DNA of 64,000 bases from Thiohalomonas denitrificans (GTDB lineage Bacteria > Pseudomonadota > Gammaproteobacteria > Thiohalomonadales > Thiohalomonadaceae). The stretch spans positions 1 to 64,000 of the forward strand of contig DYFR01000021.1 in the NCBI GenBank assembly GCA_020725115.1. Reading direction: 5' to 3'. Shown piece after piece: positions 861-19,579 of this stretch (its first letter is position 1; the number at the start of each line of letters is the position of its first letter). The translations under genes and the position numbers were made by a program. The notes under the pieces were generated by a model. That model saw only the letters and a list, made by a program, of their open reading frames with translations, was not told the origin of the DNA and ran no database searches.

Positions 861-3800
861 TCAGTCGTCCGTCGCCGGCTCCAGTACGCCGCCGGTCAAC
901 AGACGGGTGAATTCCTCGGCATCGACCGGCCGGCTGAACAGGTAGCCCTGGGCGTAGTCACAACCCAGCTCCAGCAGCAACTGCCTTTGTCCTTCGGTCT
1001 CCACGCCCTCGGCTACTACCGTCATGCCGAGGTCGTGGGCCAGAGCTATGGTATTGCGCACAATGGTGACGCTATGTGCCACCTCCGGCAGCCCCATGAC
1101 GAAGGAGCGATCGATCTTGAGACGATCGGCGGTGATCTCCTGCAAGCGCCTCAGGCTGGAATGGCCGGTACCAAAATCATCGATGGACAGGCGCACGCCG
1201 CGCTGCCGCAGCCAGCGGATGGTGCGGCGGGCGCGGCGCGGCAGTGACATGGTGACGGTCTCGGTAATCTCCAGTTCCAGCGCACCCGGAGAGAGACCAT
1301 GCGCCATCATGGCGCCGCACAGGCCGCGCAGCAGGCCGCGGCCGAACAATTGGCGGGGCGACAGGTTCACCGCCAATACGAAATCGGGCGCCAGGACGCG
1401 CCACTGCGCCGCCATCCTGCAGGCTTCGGCGTTGATCCAGGCGCCGATGGGTATGATCTGTCCGGTCTCCTCGGCGATGGGAATCAACAGGTCCAGCGCA
1501 ATGACGCGTCCCCCATCACTCCAGCGCAGCAAGACCTCGCCGCCGACGACACGACCGCCGGCCAGTTCCACCACCGGCTGCACCACCAGCCGCAAATCAT
1601 TGCGTGCCAGCGCACCGCGCAACCGCGTTTCCAGCGCCAGCCGGTCCTGCAGAAGGCGTTCGTCGCCCGGCGTATAGACCGCGGTATCAACCCCTGTATT
1701 CTTGGCCTGGTACATCGCCTGATCGGCATGGCGCAACAGGGTATCGGCGTCGCCGCCATGCTCCGGCAGGCAACTGATGCCGATGCTGGCACCGATATAC
1801 AGTTCCCGGCCGTCGATCACGAATGGCGGCGCCAGCACCGCATGTGTCTTGTCCGCCACGCTCATGGCGGATGGGCACACCGCCGCGCTGTCGTCGTCAT
1901 CCGCCGTCGCGGCACAGATCACGATGAACTCGTCGCCGCCCTGGCGCGCCAGCAGATCGCCTTCACGCAGCACCCCGCGCAACCGTTGCGCCACCTCCAC
2001 CAACAGGAGGTCGCCGACGTGGTGACCGAGAGAGTCGTTGATCTGCTTGAACCGATCGAGGTCGAGAAACAGCACCGCCAGCGGGACATGGCGCCGATGC
2101 CCCTGAGCGATGAGCAGGCGCAGGTGCTGCAACATGAAACTGCGATTGGCCAGACCGGTGAGGCTGTCGTGATAGGCCAGATGCAGGATACGCTGCTCAT
2201 CCTTCTTGCGCTGGCTGATGTCGGTAAAGGCCACGACCGCGCCGGTGAGCATGCCGTTTTCGCGCAGCGGCGTGGAATGACATTCGACGGGAAAGCGGCT
2301 GCCGTCCCGGCGCGTGAATACTTCTTCACCCTGATAGACGATCCCGTCGCGGAATACGCCCAGCAGCGGACATTCTCTGCGCGGCAGCGGCGTGCCATCG
2401 GCGCGCCATTGATGGAAGGCATCGTGGGCGTTGCGGCCGAGCAGCTCCTCCTCGCGCCAGCCCAGCATTTGCTCCGCCGCCGGATTGAGGAAACGCAGCA
2501 CCCCCTCGCCGTCGACGCAATACAGGCCCTCGCCCAGCGCCGCGATGACCGTACGGTGATAGGCATGGGCGCGGTTCAGTTCGTCCGTGGCGTGCCGCTG
2601 TTCGGTCACGTCGCTGTAGATGCCGATGTAGCGCAGAACCGTCCCGGCGCCATCGCGCACTGCGGCGATGGACAGGCGCAGCAGCGCCAGCTCCCCGTCA
2701 CCGCGCCGGTTCCATATTTCTCCACTCCACTCGCCCCGCTCGCGCAGCGCCTGCCACATGGCGCGGTAAAAGGCGGCGTCGTGTTTGCCCGACTTGAACT
2801 GGCGCACGTTGCAATACATCAGCGTACGCCCCGGATATCCCAGCATGGCGCCCAGCGCAGGATTGACCGCCTGTATGGTGCCGTCGGCATCGGTGATCAG
2901 GATGCCGTCCAGGGCATGCTCGAACACGCTGTCCGACAGGCGCTGGTACTGCTCATGCTCCTGCCGCGTGTCCACCAGTTCATTGAAGGCGGCGGCCAAC
3001 AGCGCCATGTCACTGTCCCCCACCGCCTCGGCCCGCGCCGTGGCGGCGGGATCCTGCCGCAGGATCCGCACCGTTTGCACCAAACCGATCAGCGGCCGAC
3101 CGTAGGCACGCGACAGATAGAATCCGAACAACGCCAGCAACAGCAGCAAGCCCCCTCCCGCCACCAGCATTATGAGCCCGCGCGCCCAGGCCTTCAGCAG
3201 CTGCTCCTGTGCCTGGTGATCGATCCACGACAGCAACTGGCGCTCGATAGCCGCCAGGGCATTGAGCCGCGCCAGCGCCACCCCGTCGCCGCTCCGAAGC
3301 GCCGCGCCGGCAACGCCGTCCTGCCGGGCACAACGCCGCGCCGCCGGATCCCGCTCGCCGTGCTCAATGGTCGATACTGCGAATGCCAGTGCCGGCGGCA
3401 ATTCCTGCGCCAGCCGCTGTTTCAGCTGCTCGTCCAGGCGCACCGTCAGGCTGCACAGTTCGAGTACCATGTCGCTGTCCGCCGCCGCGATGGTGGAGGT
3501 GAGCAGCCAGGCAATATCCCGTTCCTGCGCTGCATAGTCCACACTGCGCAGCAGAGCCGGCCACGAGCGCAACGGACCGACCAGCCGTGCCGGGAGCGAC
3601 ATGCCGTCGGGCATGTGCGCCGCCCGCTCCAGCACTCCCGCCGTGAAGGCGCGATAGCCACGCCATGTCTCCAGGGAATCAATTGACGGGTCATCGACCA
3701 GGCGGCGCAGATGCTGCAGCGTCGATGCGACGCCGCCGTCGGTGCGTAGCGTGACGGCATAGGCCCCCGCCACCACCGGTCGACGGGATGCCGAGCCGGA

Positions 3801-4085
3801 CTCCACGTCCACGGCACGCAACAGCGCCGCATCCGTGGTATCGCGTCGCATGGCCAGAACGGCGCGCCCGGCGCTGCCCGGTACGTGCAGTCGCACGCTC
3901 GCAGCCTGCTCCTCGCGCAGCGCATGCAGCAAGTCCGAAACGAGGCGTAGACGCTCGGCCAGCATTCCGGCTTCGCGCACCCCATGCAGCCGCTCCGCCG
4001 CGTCCACCAGCGCCAGCGCGGCAGGCACGGCCAGAAGCGCAGCGACGATCAATGCGAACAGGAAGTAAAGTCTGATCAGTGGCAT
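861..4085 (-). CDS. Membrane PAS-PAS-GGDEF-EAL cyclic-di-GMP protein
   Basis: This 1074-residue inner-membrane signalling protein has a membrane segment at 4-27, a periplasmic sensing region of about 275 residues, a second membrane segment near 303-323, a HAMP-like linker, two PAS domains (about 385-497 and 505-625), GGDEF (635-800) and EAL (810-1065). The cyclase signature GGDEF is intact at 716-720, with an RxxD inhibitory site (REGD, 707-710) at the canonical five-residue spacing. The phosphodiesterase half keeps DDFGTG and AEGVET but begins EVLLRW instead of EALLRW. It could therefore make or degrade cyclic-di-GMP. The periplasmic ligand is not recognisable. The adjacent CZB gene lies upstream on the same strand. 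Confidence 0.93.
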   Translation of the reverse strand: MPLIRLYFLFALIVAALLAVPAALALVDAAERLHGVREAGMLAERLRLVSDLLHALREEQAASVRLHVPGSAGRAVLAMRRDTTDAALLRAVDVESGSASRRPVVAGAYAVTLRTDGGVASTLQHLRRLVDDPSIDSLETWRGYRAFTAGVLERAAHMPDGMSLPARLVGPLRSWPALLRSVDYAAQERDIAWLLTSTIAAADSDMVLELCSLTVRLDEQLKQRLAQELPPALAFAVSTIEHGERDPAARRCARQDGVAGAALRSGDGVALARLNALAAIERQLLSWIDHQAQEQLLKAWARGLIMLVAGGGLLLLLALFGFYLSRAYGRPLIGLVQTVRILRQDPAATARAEAVGDSDMALLAAAFNELVDTRQEHEQYQRLSDSVFEHALDGILITDADGTIQAVNPALGAMLGYPGRTLMYCNVRQFKSGKHDAAFYRAMWQALRERGEWSGEIWNRRGDGELALLRLSIAAVRDGAGTVLRYIGIYSDVTEQRHATDELNRAHAYHRTVIAALGEGLYCVDGEGVLRFLNPAAEQMLGWREEELLGRNAHDAFHQWRADGTPLPRRECPLLGVFRDGIVYQGEEVFTRRDGSRFPVECHSTPLRENGMLTGAVVAFTDISQRKKDEQRILHLAYHDSLTGLANRSFMLQHLRLLIAQGHRRHVPLAVLFLDLDRFKQINDSLGHHVGDLLLVEVAQRLRGVLREGDLLARQGGDEFIVICAATADDDDSAAVCPSAMSVADKTHAVLAPPFVIDGRELYIGASIGISCLPEHGGDADTLLRHADQAMYQAKNTGVDTAVYTPGDERLLQDRLALETRLRGALARNDLRLVVQPVVELAGGRVVGGEVLLRWSDGGRVIALDLLIPIAEETGQIIPIGAWINAEACRMAAQWRVLAPDFVLAVNLSPRQLFGRGLLRGLCGAMMAHGLSPGALELEITETVTMSLPRRARRTIRWLRQRGVRLSIDDFGTGHSSLRRLQEITADRLKIDRSFVMGLPEVAHSVTIVRNTIALAHDLGMTVVAEGVETEGQRQLLLELGCDYAQGYLFSRPVDAEEFTRLLTGGVLEPATDD

Positions 4086-7803: not shown

Positions 7804-7839
7804 GCTGACGCAGGGTGCGCAATGCGCACCCTGCACCCC

Positions 7840-10392
7840 CTAACCAAGCACCTCGCCCGGCCGTCCGAGGTAATAACCCTGTACATAGTCGACACCGGCC
7901 TCGCGCACGTGCGCCATCACCTCGGCGTCCTCGACGAATTCGGCAATGGTACGGATACCGAGATCGCGCGCCATGGCGGCCATGTGGCGCACAAACACCA
8001 GGTCGCGCTCGTCATGCATCAGGTTGATGATGAACTCGCCGTCGATCTTCACGTAGTCGATGGGGAAATGCTTGAGATAGTGGAAGGAGGAGAAACCGGA
8101 GCCGAAGTCGTCGATGGCGAACTGGAAACCGTGCGCCTTCAGCTCGCTGACAAAACTTTGCAGCAGGGCCAGGTTGCGCACCGTCTCGCGTTCGGTCAAC
8201 TCGAACACCACCTGCCCCGGGTTGATGCCGCTGCTCGCCACCAGACGCTCCACCGTGGGCACGAATTCGGCCAGGATCAGCGCCTTGGGCGACAGGTTGA
8301 CAAACAGCTTGCCCGTGTAGCCGGTGCGGCGTACCGCCTCGAAGGCGTGCTCCATCACCTGGTAGTCCAGCTTGTGCACCACACCCATGCGTTCGGCCAC
8401 GTCGATGTAGTCGCCGGCCACCGTCACCTCGCCTTTCTCACCCAGCATGCGGCTCAATACCTCGAAGGCGAAGGGCTCGCTGCCGGCGGTGGTGACGATG
8501 GGCTGGAAATAGGGCACGAAACGCTTTTCCTCCAGCGCCGCCAGGATGCTGAAGCTTTGCGCGCCGATGCCGCGGTAGATCTCGGCCACATCCTCATGGC
8601 CGGCGAGCAGCACGCGGTTCTTGCCCTCGCTCTTGGCGCGGTACATCAGATTGTCGGCGATGAGGAACAGGTCGCGCACCGCCTCGGCGTGATCCGGGCA
8701 CAGCGCGATGCCGATGGAGATGGTGACGCGCACCGCCTTGCCGTCGGGCGCCGTCAGGCTGAGCTGGGCGGTTTCCTCCACCAGGCGCTGCGCCGCGGTC
8801 CAGGCCTGGTTCTCCGGCGCGTCGGTAACCAGCACCACGAATTCGTCGCCGCCATAACGCGCTACCACGTCGCCCTGGCGGAACACCTGCTTGAGCAGGT
8901 TGGCGAAGGCCTGCAGGAAGGCGTCGCCGAAGGTGTGGCCGTAGGTATCGTTGACACCCTTGAAGTTGTCCACGTCGATCATCAGCAGACCGATGCGCTC
9001 TTCCTTGCGCTTGGTGCGATCCATTTCATATTCCAGCAATTCCCAGAAGGCGCGCTGGTTGTAGAGATGGGTAAGCGGGTCGCGCGTGGCGTAGTACTCC
9101 AGCTCCTTGGTGTATTTGTAGATGGCCTTCACCGAGCCGACCACGTTGAGCAGGGTGGAGAGGATACTCTCCATCACCAGCAGGCGCATCGGGTCCCGGC
9201 CCAGGCCGGCCTGCACGCCGATGCCGACAATGCCGCCGATCTTCGGCGTCTCCACGAACAGGCTCTTGCTCTGCAGTTCGATGTCGCTCTCGGACAGGTT
9301 CGGCATGTCGCGGCTGGCATCGGCGGTGTTGTGATTGACCTCCACCGAGGCCACGCCCTTGAAGTAAGGATGGCGCTGCAGCACCGCGCGCACACTGCGT
9401 TCCAGCACCTGGGTCATGTGCGGCGTGGGGCGGTTGCGCCAGAATATTTCCAGATCGAAGACTTCCTCTTCCACCTTGAACACGGAGAACAGCACATAGG
9501 CCTCCATTACCTTGTTGATTTCCAGCAACAGGTGATTGACGTATTCGTGCCAGTCGCGCACCACCTCGGAGGTGATGATGAAGCGCTCCAGCAGGCGGAT
9601 TTCGAACTCCAGCAGGTCCTTGTCCACGGCGAACTCGCGCAACCGTTCCACCAGGGCGCGCACCTCGGCCAGGATATCGTCCAGCTCGCGGAAGCCCACC
9701 TGCGAGTCGTCCATGGCGAAGTGCGCCAGGTCGGACACCTTGTTGACCTGGCCGACGCGGCCGCGCAACAGCTGCACCGAGTGATCGATGCGGCCATGGA
9801 TGAACATCGCCACCAGGAAGGCGCCCACCAACATCACCGGCACCACCAGCCACAGCGCCGCCATGAAGCCGGAGCGGGCCCGCTCCAGTACCGGTCGCAG
9901 ATCCTGGCGCAGGTCGATCACCCCCAGGGTGTCGCCCACCGTGGCATTACTGTGGCACCCCAGGCACTCCTGGCGCGCACGCAGCGGATAGACATGGCGC
10001 AGGCCGCTGTCGTCCTCGTATACCCCATTGCGACCGTCGCGGAAGGCCTGGCTGATGGCCGTGTCGGGCAGCGGCTGGTCGATGGTGCCGTACAGTGCAT
10101 CGACCAACTCGCCGCGGTAGATCTCCAGACTGTAGGGGGTATCGGTGAAACGGCCGCGCATGGCGGCGAGGAATTCTTCCAGTTCGGCACGGGTCCAGCC
10201 CTTGCGCATCACCTGGAACATGGCGTCGAAGGTCTGCCCCGCCAGCACACCGGACACCTCGCGCGCATCCTCGCGCACCGTGCGATCGTAAAGCGATGCC
10301 ACCACGGCGTAGGCCCCCGCAAACAACAGCAGGGAACCGGCCAGGGCGGCGAGCAGCATGAAGCCTTTGATGGTACGAAACAGGTGCCACAT
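7840..10392 (-). CDS. Membrane GGDEF-EAL protein with periplasmic c-type haem motif
   Basis: This 850-residue protein has a membrane helix at about 10-33, a periplasmic domain, a second helix at about 176-198, a long coiled/GAF-like region (about 255-440), GGDEF (440-595) and EAL (610-850). The periplasmic part ends with CLGCH at 143-147, the CxxCH attachment site for covalent haem, in a context resembling the Tll0287-like/DUF3365 family. It may sense redox state or a gas ligand. GGDEF (514-518) and an RxxD inhibitory site (505-508) are intact. The EAL signature reads FEVLSRM, while DDFGSG and AEFVED are kept. The C-terminus stops soon after GYYLGRP, close to the end of the EAL fold. Confidence 0.92.
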   Translation of the reverse strand: MWHLFRTIKGFMLLAALAGSLLLFAGAYAVVASLYDRTVREDAREVSGVLAGQTFDAMFQVMRKGWTRAELEEFLAAMRGRFTDTPYSLEIYRGELVDALYGTIDQPLPDTAISQAFRDGRNGVYEDDSGLRHVYPLRARQECLGCHSNATVGDTLGVIDLRQDLRPVLERARSGFMAALWLVVPVMLVGAFLVAMFIHGRIDHSVQLLRGRVGQVNKVSDLAHFAMDDSQVGFRELDDILAEVRALVERLREFAVDKDLLEFEIRLLERFIITSEVVRDWHEYVNHLLLEINKVMEAYVLFSVFKVEEEVFDLEIFWRNRPTPHMTQVLERSVRAVLQRHPYFKGVASVEVNHNTADASRDMPNLSESDIELQSKSLFVETPKIGGIVGIGVQAGLGRDPMRLLVMESILSTLLNVVGSVKAIYKYTKELEYYATRDPLTHLYNQRAFWELLEYEMDRTKRKEERIGLLMIDVDNFKGVNDTYGHTFGDAFLQAFANLLKQVFRQGDVVARYGGDEFVVLVTDAPENQAWTAAQRLVEETAQLSLTAPDGKAVRVTISIGIALCPDHAEAVRDLFLIADNLMYRAKSEGKNRVLLAGHEDVAEIYRGIGAQSFSILAALEEKRFVPYFQPIVTTAGSEPFAFEVLSRMLGEKGEVTVAGDYIDVAERMGVVHKLDYQVMEHAFEAVRRTGYTGKLFVNLSPKALILAEFVPTVERLVASSGINPGQVVFELTERETVRNLALLQSFVSELKAHGFQFAIDDFGSGFSSFHYLKHFPIDYVKIDGEFIINLMHDERDLVFVRHMAAMARDLGIRTIAEFVEDAEVMAHVREAGVDYVQGYYLGRPGEVLG

Positions 10393-10563
10393 GACGATGG
10401 CCTTTAGTTATTTTTATGGAAAACCGGCAGCGGGACGATGACTCAGCTCTCCCCCAAACCTGTGGCGGCAACTATCACATACCCGCCATATACCCAGATA
10501 TTGGGATATTCCTTATCGGTAAGAGTAGCTTAGTAAAACGGTAAAGAAAGTGGCGGGACACCA

Positions 10564-10691
10564 GTGACAAGTGACAAGTGACAAGTGACAAGTGACAAGT
10601 GACAAGTGACAAGCAAAGAAGGTTTGGCTTTTTCTTGCAACTTGCAACTTGCAACTTGTCACTTGCAACTCACATGTCACTTGTCACTCAC
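10564..10691. repeat. Heptamer tandem array with inverted partner (locus B)
   Basis: Seven perfect copies of GTGACAA occupy 10564-10612. At 10634-10691 follow complementary-type heptamers (TTGCAAC three times, then TTGTCAC variants), so the arms could form a long hairpin. The right arm overlaps the last codons and the stop codon of cobT (stop at 10677-10679). The rest of the spacer 10393-10563 holds no gene. Confidence 0.9.
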
Positions 10692-16178: not shown

Positions 16179-16964
16179 TCAGGATTGTTCATTGCGCTGC
16201 GCCCGCCGCGCGCGCCAGTGGCTGAGCTGGGCGTAGCCCATCACCATCATGATCGGGAACAGGCAGGCGAAGGCCACCAGGCCGAAGCCGTCCAGCAGCG
16301 GACTGCGCCCCGGAATGGTATTGGCCAGCCCCAGCCCCAGCGCCGTCACCAGCGGCACGGTGACGATGGAGGTGGTGACGCCGCCGGAATCGTAGGCCAC
16401 CGGGATGATGCTGCGCGGGGCAAACCAGGTCTGGAAGATGAGCAGCAGATAGGCCGGGATCATGAAATAGTGCAGCGGCGTGCCGGTAACCAGCTTGAGG
16501 GTACCGAGGATCAGGCCCACCGCCACGCCGAAGGCCACCACCAGGCGCAGACCCCACACGTTGATGGTGCCGCCGGACACGTCGCGCACCTTCATCGCCA
16601 CCGCGATCACCGCCGGCTCGGCGATGGAGCTGGCGAAGCCGATGGCGGCGGCGAATACGTACACCCACAGATAGTCATGCCAGCGCACCGTGTCGGGCAC
16701 GGCACCGTCACCGAACAGGAACGACGGCGCGGTGAGCTGATCGGCCATCATGGTGCCGAGGGGAAACAGCGCCATGTCCAGCCCCTCCAGAAACACCACC
16801 AGGCCCACCACCACATAGCCGAAGCCCGCGGCGGCCCGCTTCCAGTGCGGAAACGGCCGGCGGATGACGAACAGCTGGAACACCACCACCACGATCACGA
16901 TGGGCAGCACGTCCAGCGCCGTCACCAGCAGAGTACCGAGTCCCGTGTAGATGGTTTCAATCAT
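16179..16964 (-). CDS. DUF1538 family membrane protein (first copy)
   Basis: This 261-residue protein has at least six hydrophobic segments and matches the DUF1538 family, whose function is unknown. Family-type motifs include RRPFPHWKRAAAGFGYVVVG near residue 35, IAEPAVIAVA near 115, AYDSGGVTTS near 192 and [15 protein letters not shown] near 220. It is paralogous to the gene at 17110-17844, and the two probably make a two-subunit or heteromeric membrane complex. The conserved charged and small residues within membrane stretches suggest transport. Neighbours are a cation/proton antiporter upstream and P-II-like and CBS genes downstream. Confidence 0.88.
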   Translation of the reverse strand: MIETIYTGLGTLLVTALDVLPIVIVVVVFQLFVIRRPFPHWKRAAAGFGYVVVGLVVFLEGLDMALFPLGTMMADQLTAPSFLFGDGAVPDTVRWHDYLWVYVFAAAIGFASSIAEPAVIAVAMKVRDVSGGTINVWGLRLVVAFGVAVGLILGTLKLVTGTPLHYFMIPAYLLLIFQTWFAPRSIIPVAYDSGGVTTSIVTVPLVTALGLGLANTIPGRSPLLDGFGLVAFACLFPIMMVMGYAQLSHWRARRAQRNEQS

Positions 16965-17109: not shown

Positions 17110-17844
17110 TCATGACAGCATCCCATAGGCCATGACGAAGATCATCGGCATCACCGAGGCGAAGGCCACCAGGCCGAAGCCGTCCACCATGGGATTGCGC
17201 CCCTTGATCGACGAGGCCAGACCGACGCCCAGCGCCGCCACCAGCGGCACGGTGATCTCCGAGGTGGTCACGGCGCCGAAGTCATAGGCGATGGCCATGA
17301 TCTCGCGCGGCGCAAACGGCGTCAGCGCCACCATGAACAGATAGGCGATGCTGATGAGGATATGCATGGGCCAGCCCTTGATGATGCGGATCACGCCGAT
17401 GAGCAGGCCCACGCCCACCGCCAGGCCGACCACCACGCGCAGCTCCCAGGCGGCGGCGAAACGGGCGCTGTCGGTATCGGCCACCAGGCCTGCCCCGACC
17501 ATGGCCGTAGTCGCCTTGTTGGCCACGGCGATCAGCGCCGGCTCCGCCACCGTGGTGCCGAAACCGAGGGCAAAGGCGAAGACCAGCAGCCAGGCCACGC
17601 TGCCCTTGCGGGCAAAGGCGTAGGCCATGTTCTCGCCCACCGGAAACAGCCCCAGCTCCAGCCCGCGCACGAACAGCGCCAGCCCCGCCGCCACCAGCAG
17701 CGTGCCCAGTACCAGTTGCGTGAAATCGGGAAACGGCTGGCGCAGCACCAGCAACTGAAACACCGCAATCACACCAATGATCGGCAGCAGATCGCGCAGG
17801 CTCTGCAGGAACAGCTTGCCCAGCGCCAGTACAACCTCTTTCAA
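17110..17844 (-). CDS. DUF1538 family membrane protein (second copy)
   Basis: This protein of 244 residues with several membrane segments is a paralogue of the DUF1538 protein at 16179-16964. Shared motifs are [41 protein letters not shown] and [17 protein letters not shown]. No function is established for the family; the two genes together with P-II-like and CBS genes suggest a regulated transporter (inference). The start is uncertain: a TTG at 17844 follows AGAGGGGG closely and removes the overlap with the antiporter gene, while a GTG at 17895 would give 261 residues with an Arg-rich, unusual N-terminus. Confidence 0.85.
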
Positions 17845-17866
17845 CCTGCCCCCTCTGCGTCGTCGA

Positions 17867-19579
17867 TCATTCCGGCACCAGCTTGAGGCCGACACGCGTC
17901 ACTTCATGCCCCTGCATCTCGCGCACCACCAGTTCCATATTACCGAATCGTATGCGATCGCCCACCACATGGCGATTGCCGGCCCGTTGCGCGATGAACG
18001 CCGTCAGCGTGCGGTCAAGCTCCTCCGGCGGAAAGGTTATGCCGTAGACGGCGGCCAGTTCACCCAGCGTAGCACCGCCGTCGATAACGAATTCACCGAA
18101 GTAGCGCCGTTCCTCCCGCTCGCGCCGCGCCGCGCCCGGCGCGAACATCCGCTCCAGGCCGTCGAGGCGATGGCGCGCTGCGGCTATGTAGACATAGTCG
18201 CCCACGCGCAGTTCACCGTCGCTGCACAGCGCCCCCTGCCGGATCACCGCCGCCACCGAGGCCCCTTCCGGCAGAGTCAGCGCCGCCGCCGTCCGGCCGA
18301 CCGCAATGCTGTCCTCCTCCACCTGGAATGCCACCATCTCCAGCCCGGCCTGGCCCGGGATGTCCAGCTCCATGCGCTGAATGGCGCCGCGCTGCGACGG
18401 CAGTTGCAGGCGCAGCAGCCGCGCCAGCGGCGGGATGGTCCAGCCCTGCAACAGCAGGGAGATGAACACCACGGCAAAGGCGATGTGAAAGAAGGTGTCC
18501 GCCGCACCGATGCCGGCCAGCAGGGGAAACATGCTGAGCACGATGGGTACCGCGCCGCGCAGCCCCACCCAGGAAATGTACACCTGCTCGCGCCAGGGGA
18601 AGCGGAACGGCAGCAGGCACAGCATCACCGCCAGCGGTCGCGCCACCAGCATCAGCCCCAGGGCGATGAACAACGCCGGCCACAGATCCGGCAGCAGTGC
18701 GGTCGGCGTCACCAGCAGGCCGAGGACGAGAAACATGCCGATCTGCGCCAGCCAGGCCATGCCGTCGTGGAAGCGGCGGATGTTGTGTCCCGACTGCAAC
18801 GGCCGGTTGCCGAGCAGCAGACCGGCCAGGTACACGGCGAGAAAGCCGCTGCCGCCGACCACGGCGGTGAGACCGAAGATGCTCAGACTGCCGGCCAGTG
18901 CGGTCACCGGATACAGGCCGCTGCGCAGCGGCACGCGATTGATGATCAGTGCCAGCAGCCGGCCGCCGCCCAGACCGGCGACGGCGCCGATACCCATCTG
19001 CCAGATGAAGGTGACGATCACGTCCCACTGCAGCATGTCCTGCCCGCGCACCAGTGCCTCCACCAGCACGATGGTGAGAAACACCGCCATCGGGTCGTTG
19101 GTACCCGACTCGATCTCCAGCGTCGAGGCGACGCGCTCCTTCAGCTGCAAGCCCTTGGCGCGCAACAGGGCAAACACTGCCGCCGCATCGGTGGAGCCGA
19201 CGATGGAGCCGACCAGCAGCGCCTCCAGCCAACTCAGCTCCAGCACCAGGCGGGCGATGGCGGCGGTGAGCACCGCGGTGAGCAGCACGCCTACCGTGGC
19301 CAGCACCACCGCCGGGCGCAGTGCGACGCGGAAAGTCTTGATCTCGGTGTTGAGGCCGCCGTCGAACAGTATGACGGCCAGGGCCAGGTTGCCGACCAGA
19401 AAGGCCAGCTCGGCATCGTCGAAATGAATGCCGCCCAGGCCGTCCACGCCCAGCAGCATGCCCAGCACCAGGAACACCAGCAGCACGGGCATGCCGAGCC
19501 GGCCCGAGATGCTGGTGGTCAGCAGCGTGCCGAGCAGCACCACGCCGACGGTGGCGATGAGTTGGCTGGTATAGTCCAT
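17867..19579 (-). CDS. CPA1-type cation/proton antiporter with RCK_C domain (NhaP2/CvrA-like)
   Basis: This 570-residue protein has a 12-13 helix Na+/H+-exchanger domain (about 1-385; motifs [37 protein letters not shown] and the C-terminal helix motif VGLRGAVPI). A cytoplasmic TrkA-C/RCK_C domain (about 400-480) and a small C-terminal transporter-associated domain follow. The layout and length match E. coli CvrA (578 residues), a K+/H+ antiporter used at low osmolarity. Motifs ESGTNDP and DGGLN hold the ion-binding acidic residues. It is divergent from the Usp gene at 19654. The ion selectivity is inferred from the family. Confidence 0.92.

Follow-up and report, generated by a model that had tools for sequence, protein, structure and literature searches.

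The gene at positions 7840..10392 on the minus strand of the window, i.e., of the whole 64,000-nucleotide stretch of DNA that was analysed, encodes a membrane protein in which, very probably, a covalent haem outside the inner membrane serves to adjust cyclic-di-GMP (c-di-GMP). The sensor type as such is already known; the window protein is a divergent addition to it, well supported but not unprecedented. The architecture, the fold, the conserved and the intact catalytic residues, and the occurrence of haem-c maturation genes were read from sequences or from models. The features of the gene are the following.

7840..10392, minus strand: sensor gene, 850 aa, in the order TM1, haem-c Cache domain, TM2, HAMP-like helices, GAF-fold domain, GGDEF, EAL
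9853..10311, minus strand: extracytoplasmic sensor of the sCache_heme type with the ends of the flanking TM helices, residues 28-180 as modelled (AF2, Foldseek, profile)
10207..10209, minus strand: codon of Met62, the predicted distal haem ligand (alignment with Met60 of GSU0935)
9952..9966, minus strand: CLGCH, predicted haem-c attachment motif, residues 143-147, proximal ligand His147
9796..9873, minus strand: TM2, about residues 174-199 (hydropathy)
9091..9615, minus strand: GAF-fold cytoplasmic domain, residues about 260-434, its C-terminal helix continuing into GGDEF
8614..9090, minus strand: GGDEF domain, residues 435-593, with RYGGDEF active site and RxxD I-site R505/D508 (Pfam)
7858..8544, minus strand: EAL domain, residues 617-845, with motif residues E644, FVNLS, ELTER, DDFGSG, K, E and QG (Pfam)

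Hydropathy places TM1 at about residues 10-33 and TM2 at about 174-199. CLGCH lies between both, about 26 residues N-terminal of TM2, and is taken as extracytoplasmic because the two predicted helices enclose it. The initial annotation had located this motif at residues 143-147, before the second TM helix of a GGDEF-EAL protein; its coordinates and numbering are correct, and both output domains were found by Pfam (435-593 and 617-845). The whole protein has three Cys, C143 and C146 (both in CLGCH) and a cytoplasmic one at position 565. The CxxCH count expected from the protein's own composition is about 0.0003; by this expectation and by the conservation of the motif (95/96, see below) a chance occurrence was rejected. 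An open frame of 861 aa (7822-10407, plus strand) runs antisense to the entire gene; it is most likely explained as a side effect of the GC-rich codon usage.

Relatives with the whole sensor region were drawn from 369 genomes of the same class, 398 of the same phylum and 80 named loci of the genome collection, and were aligned in a set of 96 sequences, the window protein included. CxxCH is present in 95 of the 96 sequences sharing the sensor region (His147 in 95/96, the two Cys in 96/96), a figure that is not a count of independent events, since the set holds a few near-duplicates. After filtering at 85% identity the motif is present in all 62 sequences, and paralogues at 38-40% identity retain it as well. 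According to the initial annotation, absence of CxxCH from close homologues would speak against the haem; this check was run, and the motif is kept throughout the family with a single exception. Near-constant in the 96-sequence alignment are also M58, M62, G65, W66, R68, R93, V97, G102, A139, L156 and G157. The exception (L016 of genome G160) reads CSDCP, has V in place of M58 and Q in place of M62, lacks the stretch around R93-G102, and retains the cytoplasmic GAF-GGDEF-EAL part. This natural variant without the haem motif is a ready-made control. The family occurs in Gamma- and Betaproteobacteria, and further hits come from MAGs that carry the labels Nitrospirae and Epsilonproteobacteria.

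The AF2 model of the sensor (residues 28-180) has a pLDDT of 91.7 and is haem-free. In the model, CxxCH sits on a short helix preceding the last beta-strand (strand 103-111, helix 114-118, motif 116-120, strand 128-137; model numbering). When the domain profile was run against all PDB sequences, the first matches were 3b47 (E 0.0028) and 3b42 (E 0.013), the sensor domains of Geobacter chemoreceptors. The top three Foldseek rows of the AF2 model were 3b42 (two chains) and 3b47, with 5b82 (Tll0287) at rank 5, all with a probability of 1.00. The superpositions on 3b42 and 3b47 have an rmsd of 13-17 A over the whole chain, probably because those crystals contain domain-swapped dimers. VIA-align of the sensor model gave a Z of 10.0 to 5b82 (rmsd 3.6 over 126 residues), and the other rows were Cache domains. 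The Tll0287/DUF3365-like context that had been noted earlier is right, but not by the Pfam threshold: the window domain reaches 13.5 bits against PF11845 (Tll0287-like; E 0.096), below the gathering cut-off of 24.1, and is therefore not counted as a member. PF11845 matches at E<=1 were obtained for 55 of 62 members, the best at 1.3e-5. The protein has a canonical CxxCH, a single Cache fold with the motif helix before the last strand, and a TM-linked signalling output, three traits described for sCache_heme, the last of them for its signalling cluster; the covalently bound haem c that also belongs to the family is predicted here. It represents a divergent sCache_heme subfamily that the Pfam cut-off misses, and the Tll0287-like cut-off of Pfam overlooks at least the window protein. 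Two further proteins encoded in the same genome (L116 and L117) lie above the PF11845 cut-off; L117 has a signal-peptide-like start and CMGCH, and is possibly a stand-alone haem-c Cache protein.

The haem of GSU0935 is ligated by His144 and, in the low-spin form, by Met60 (PMC8396549). In the profile alignment His144 corresponds to chain position 110, so that Met60 is position 26, which falls ungapped on profile position 35, i.e., on Met62 of the window protein. Met62 is predicted from this alignment to be the distal haem ligand. It is kept in 94/96 sequences of the family alignment, in 16 of 17 alignable distant CxxCH sensors and in 5/5 further family members. M58 is likewise kept in the family but, unlike M62, is replaced by L, I or V in most distant relatives, and was rejected as a general distal ligand. 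Axial ligation by His and Cys as in Tll0287 was also rejected; the sole Cys outside the motif is the cytoplasmic Cys565, and a distal Cys is therefore impossible. Among the 20 checked genomes carrying the protein, CcmE was found in 14 and ResB in each of the six others, so that a cytochrome c maturation system is present in 20/20; this evidence is permissive only, because CcmE alone is common in the class (278/369 genomes). Together, conservation, fold, conservation of the distal ligand and maturation genes strongly support what had been proposed earlier, namely that a periplasmic Tll0287-like sensor ahead of GGDEF-EAL binds haem c covalently.

On the cytoplasmic side, GGDEF and the Glu of the EAL motif are conserved in all 95 sequences that reach these domains. 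RYGGDEF and the I-site R505/D508 are intact and conserved, and the EAL residues E644, FVNLS, ELTER, DDFGSG and others are invariant or nearly so in the alignment. As the GGDEF, EAL and I-site residues are intact, both diguanylate cyclase and phosphodiesterase activities appear possible. Residues about 260-434 have no Pfam match. The model of this region (pLDDT 74) is a GAF fold by structural comparison: VIA returned mostly GAF or GAF-like LuxR-type rows (best 4g3k, Z 11.1, 144 residues, rmsd 3.5), with DosP, NifA, PDE6 and phytochrome-linked proteins among further rows. The assignment rests on these VIA rows, since Foldseek on the HAMP+GAF segment gave nothing significant. The GAF-fold domain, with its PKIGGIVGIGV motif, is strongly conserved, more so than the haem sensor. 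Two loci (L018 and L021) match residues 236-434 only, and not the haem sensor.

The proposed mechanism is that of an inner-membrane c-di-GMP enzyme whose periplasmic single-Cache fold would hold one covalent haem c, bound by Cys143 and Cys146 with His147 as proximal ligand. Met62, in the long N-terminal helix, would be the distal ligand, to be displaced by a redox change of the haem or by binding of NO. The displaced helix, which is continuous with TM1, may then shift against TM2, the helix that comes after the last beta-strand. This movement could be passed through the HAMP-like helices and the GAF-fold domain to the GGDEF-EAL pair, so that the net synthesis or breakdown of c-di-GMP would be altered. 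For the window protein we infer the covalent haem, the ligation by Met62, the stimulus and the direction of the output. We regard this explanation as a whole, a redox- or NO-driven haem-c/Met62 Cache sensor controlling c-di-GMP turnover by GGDEF-EAL, as likely to be correct.

As to the stimulus, a sensor of redox potential like GSU0935, with Met62 bound in Fe(II) and released in Fe(III) and no gas needed, has close to an even chance of being the true case. In favour of this are the alignment of Met62 with Met60, which in GSU0935 is the ligand switched by redox state, and the retention of Met62 both within the family and in more remote sensors; in GSU0935 and GSU0582 the Met is released on oxidation (PMC8396549). 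Many of the relatives are sulfur-oxidising or sediment bacteria. However, NO and CO are ligands of GSU0935 and GSU0582 as well, and redox and NO are therefore not separable by sequence. The physiological signal could instead be NO, as in a sensor of the P. azotoformans type, with the redox change incidental, which we hold to be well possible, at somewhat under an even chance. The signalling-associated sCache_heme of P. azotoformans releases NO slowly (koff 6.25e-4 per s) and does not form a stable complex with O2 (PMC12889525), and the three strong Cytochrom_D1 matches in the window's genome, cd1-type nitrite reductase genes, point to a likely source of NO. Against this, a Met-ligated haem in the reduced form is to be expected from the strict conservation of Met62, while the ligand inferred in P. 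azotoformans is water. Moreover, just 4/20 genomes with the protein have clear cd1 hits, so that the protein is not tied to cd1 denitrification, and a link to cd1 nitrite reductase was rejected; no enrichment is claimed for cd1, because PF02239 also gives many weak matches in the background of the class. The gene neighbourhood across the relatives holds no conserved neighbour that would name the signal, only generic response regulators and lineage-specific synteny.

Sensing of O2 or CO is improbable. Reduced GSU sensors do bind CO, but we know of no precedent for periplasmic CO signalling. None of the sCache_heme proteins tested gave a stable complex with O2 (PMC12889525), which speaks against O2 among the stimuli considered in the initial annotation (redox state, NO, CO or O2), while redox or NO fits the characterised relatives. 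Least probable is a thiol-disulfide or metal site without haem, a reading that has in its favour that the haem of the window protein is itself deduced, but that has against it the match of fold and sequence to solved haem-c domains, the conservation of His147, whose one loss coincides with the loss of Met62, and the maturation genes in 20/20 genomes.

The sCache_heme family (DUF3365/Tll0287) was described by Deshpande et al. in a preprint of February 2026 as a large family of haem-c Cache sensors with GGDEF/EAL among the listed outputs, and NO is favoured there over O2 (PMC12889525). The window protein shares with it the single Cache fold, the position of CxxCH on a short helix ahead of the final beta-strand, the two TM helices and the fusion to a c-di-GMP enzyme (PMC12889525); it differs in falling below the PF11845 cut-off and in the extra GAF-fold domain between membrane and GGDEF. 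No GGDEF/EAL member is characterised in that paper (PMC12889525). The closest solved sequences and folds are the sensor domains of GSU0935 and GSU0582 of Geobacter sulfurreducens (PDB 3B42, 3B47; Geobacter haem-c sensors are reviewed in PMC8396549). GSU0935 would also share the distal Met in the N-terminal helix, to judge from the alignment of Met60 with Met62. Sensors of the GSU0935 type are domain-swapped dimers in which the spin state of the haem changes with redox state. Both are only about 17-23% identical to the window domain, and they signal through an MCP domain instead of GGDEF-EAL. Tll0287 of Thermosynechococcus (PDB 5B82) has a Cache-type fold and CxxCH too, but is a stand-alone protein with His/Cys axial ligation, for which the window protein has no free Cys. 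In DosP (EcDOS), a haem PAS-GGDEF-EAL protein, a haem sensor likewise controls GGDEF-EAL; unlike the window protein, DosP is cytoplasmic, binds non-covalent haem b in a PAS domain and is regulated by O2. The periplasmic domain of another c-di-GMP enzyme, the CHASE4 diguanylate cyclase PA14_53310, also interacts with haem, but it has a CHASE4 fold, and the added b-type haem is a ligand and not a covalent cofactor (PMC13277305).

A literature search, which mostly did not reach subscription papers, found no characterised haem-c Cache GGDEF-EAL protein. That haem-c sensors coupled to GGDEF-EAL are little described, as the initial annotation had it, was a fair statement as regards characterised proteins; the architecture itself, however, is named explicitly in the preprint of February 2026 (PMC12889525). 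If the explanation is true, sulfur-oxidising and denitrifying bacteria have here a direct link from redox state or NO on the outer side of the inner membrane to c-di-GMP, through which biofilm and motility would probably be affected. Met62 is a clean, testable candidate for the ligand switch. A further generalisation, which we put forward tentatively and consider rather unlikely as it stands, is that of a widespread, uncharacterised orthologous family in which an external covalent haem would toggle a bifunctional GGDEF-EAL pair between synthesis and degradation of c-di-GMP through redox- or NO-driven release of Met, with the GAF domain as a second input.

No riboswitch or structured RNA was found at the sensor gene in Rfam. 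Upstream of the gene start, between the sensor gene and cobT, lies a perfect 7-bp tandem repeat (AGTGACA x7.3, 10563-10613), and a second 7-bp array (CTTGCAA x5.3, 10634-10670) lies likewise between these genes; both arrays could be length-variable. A second GGDEF-EAL protein is encoded nearby (861-4085, minus strand, 1074 aa) and has tandem PAS domains. Two adjacent DUF1538 proteins are encoded at 16179-16964 and 17110-17895, both on the minus strand.
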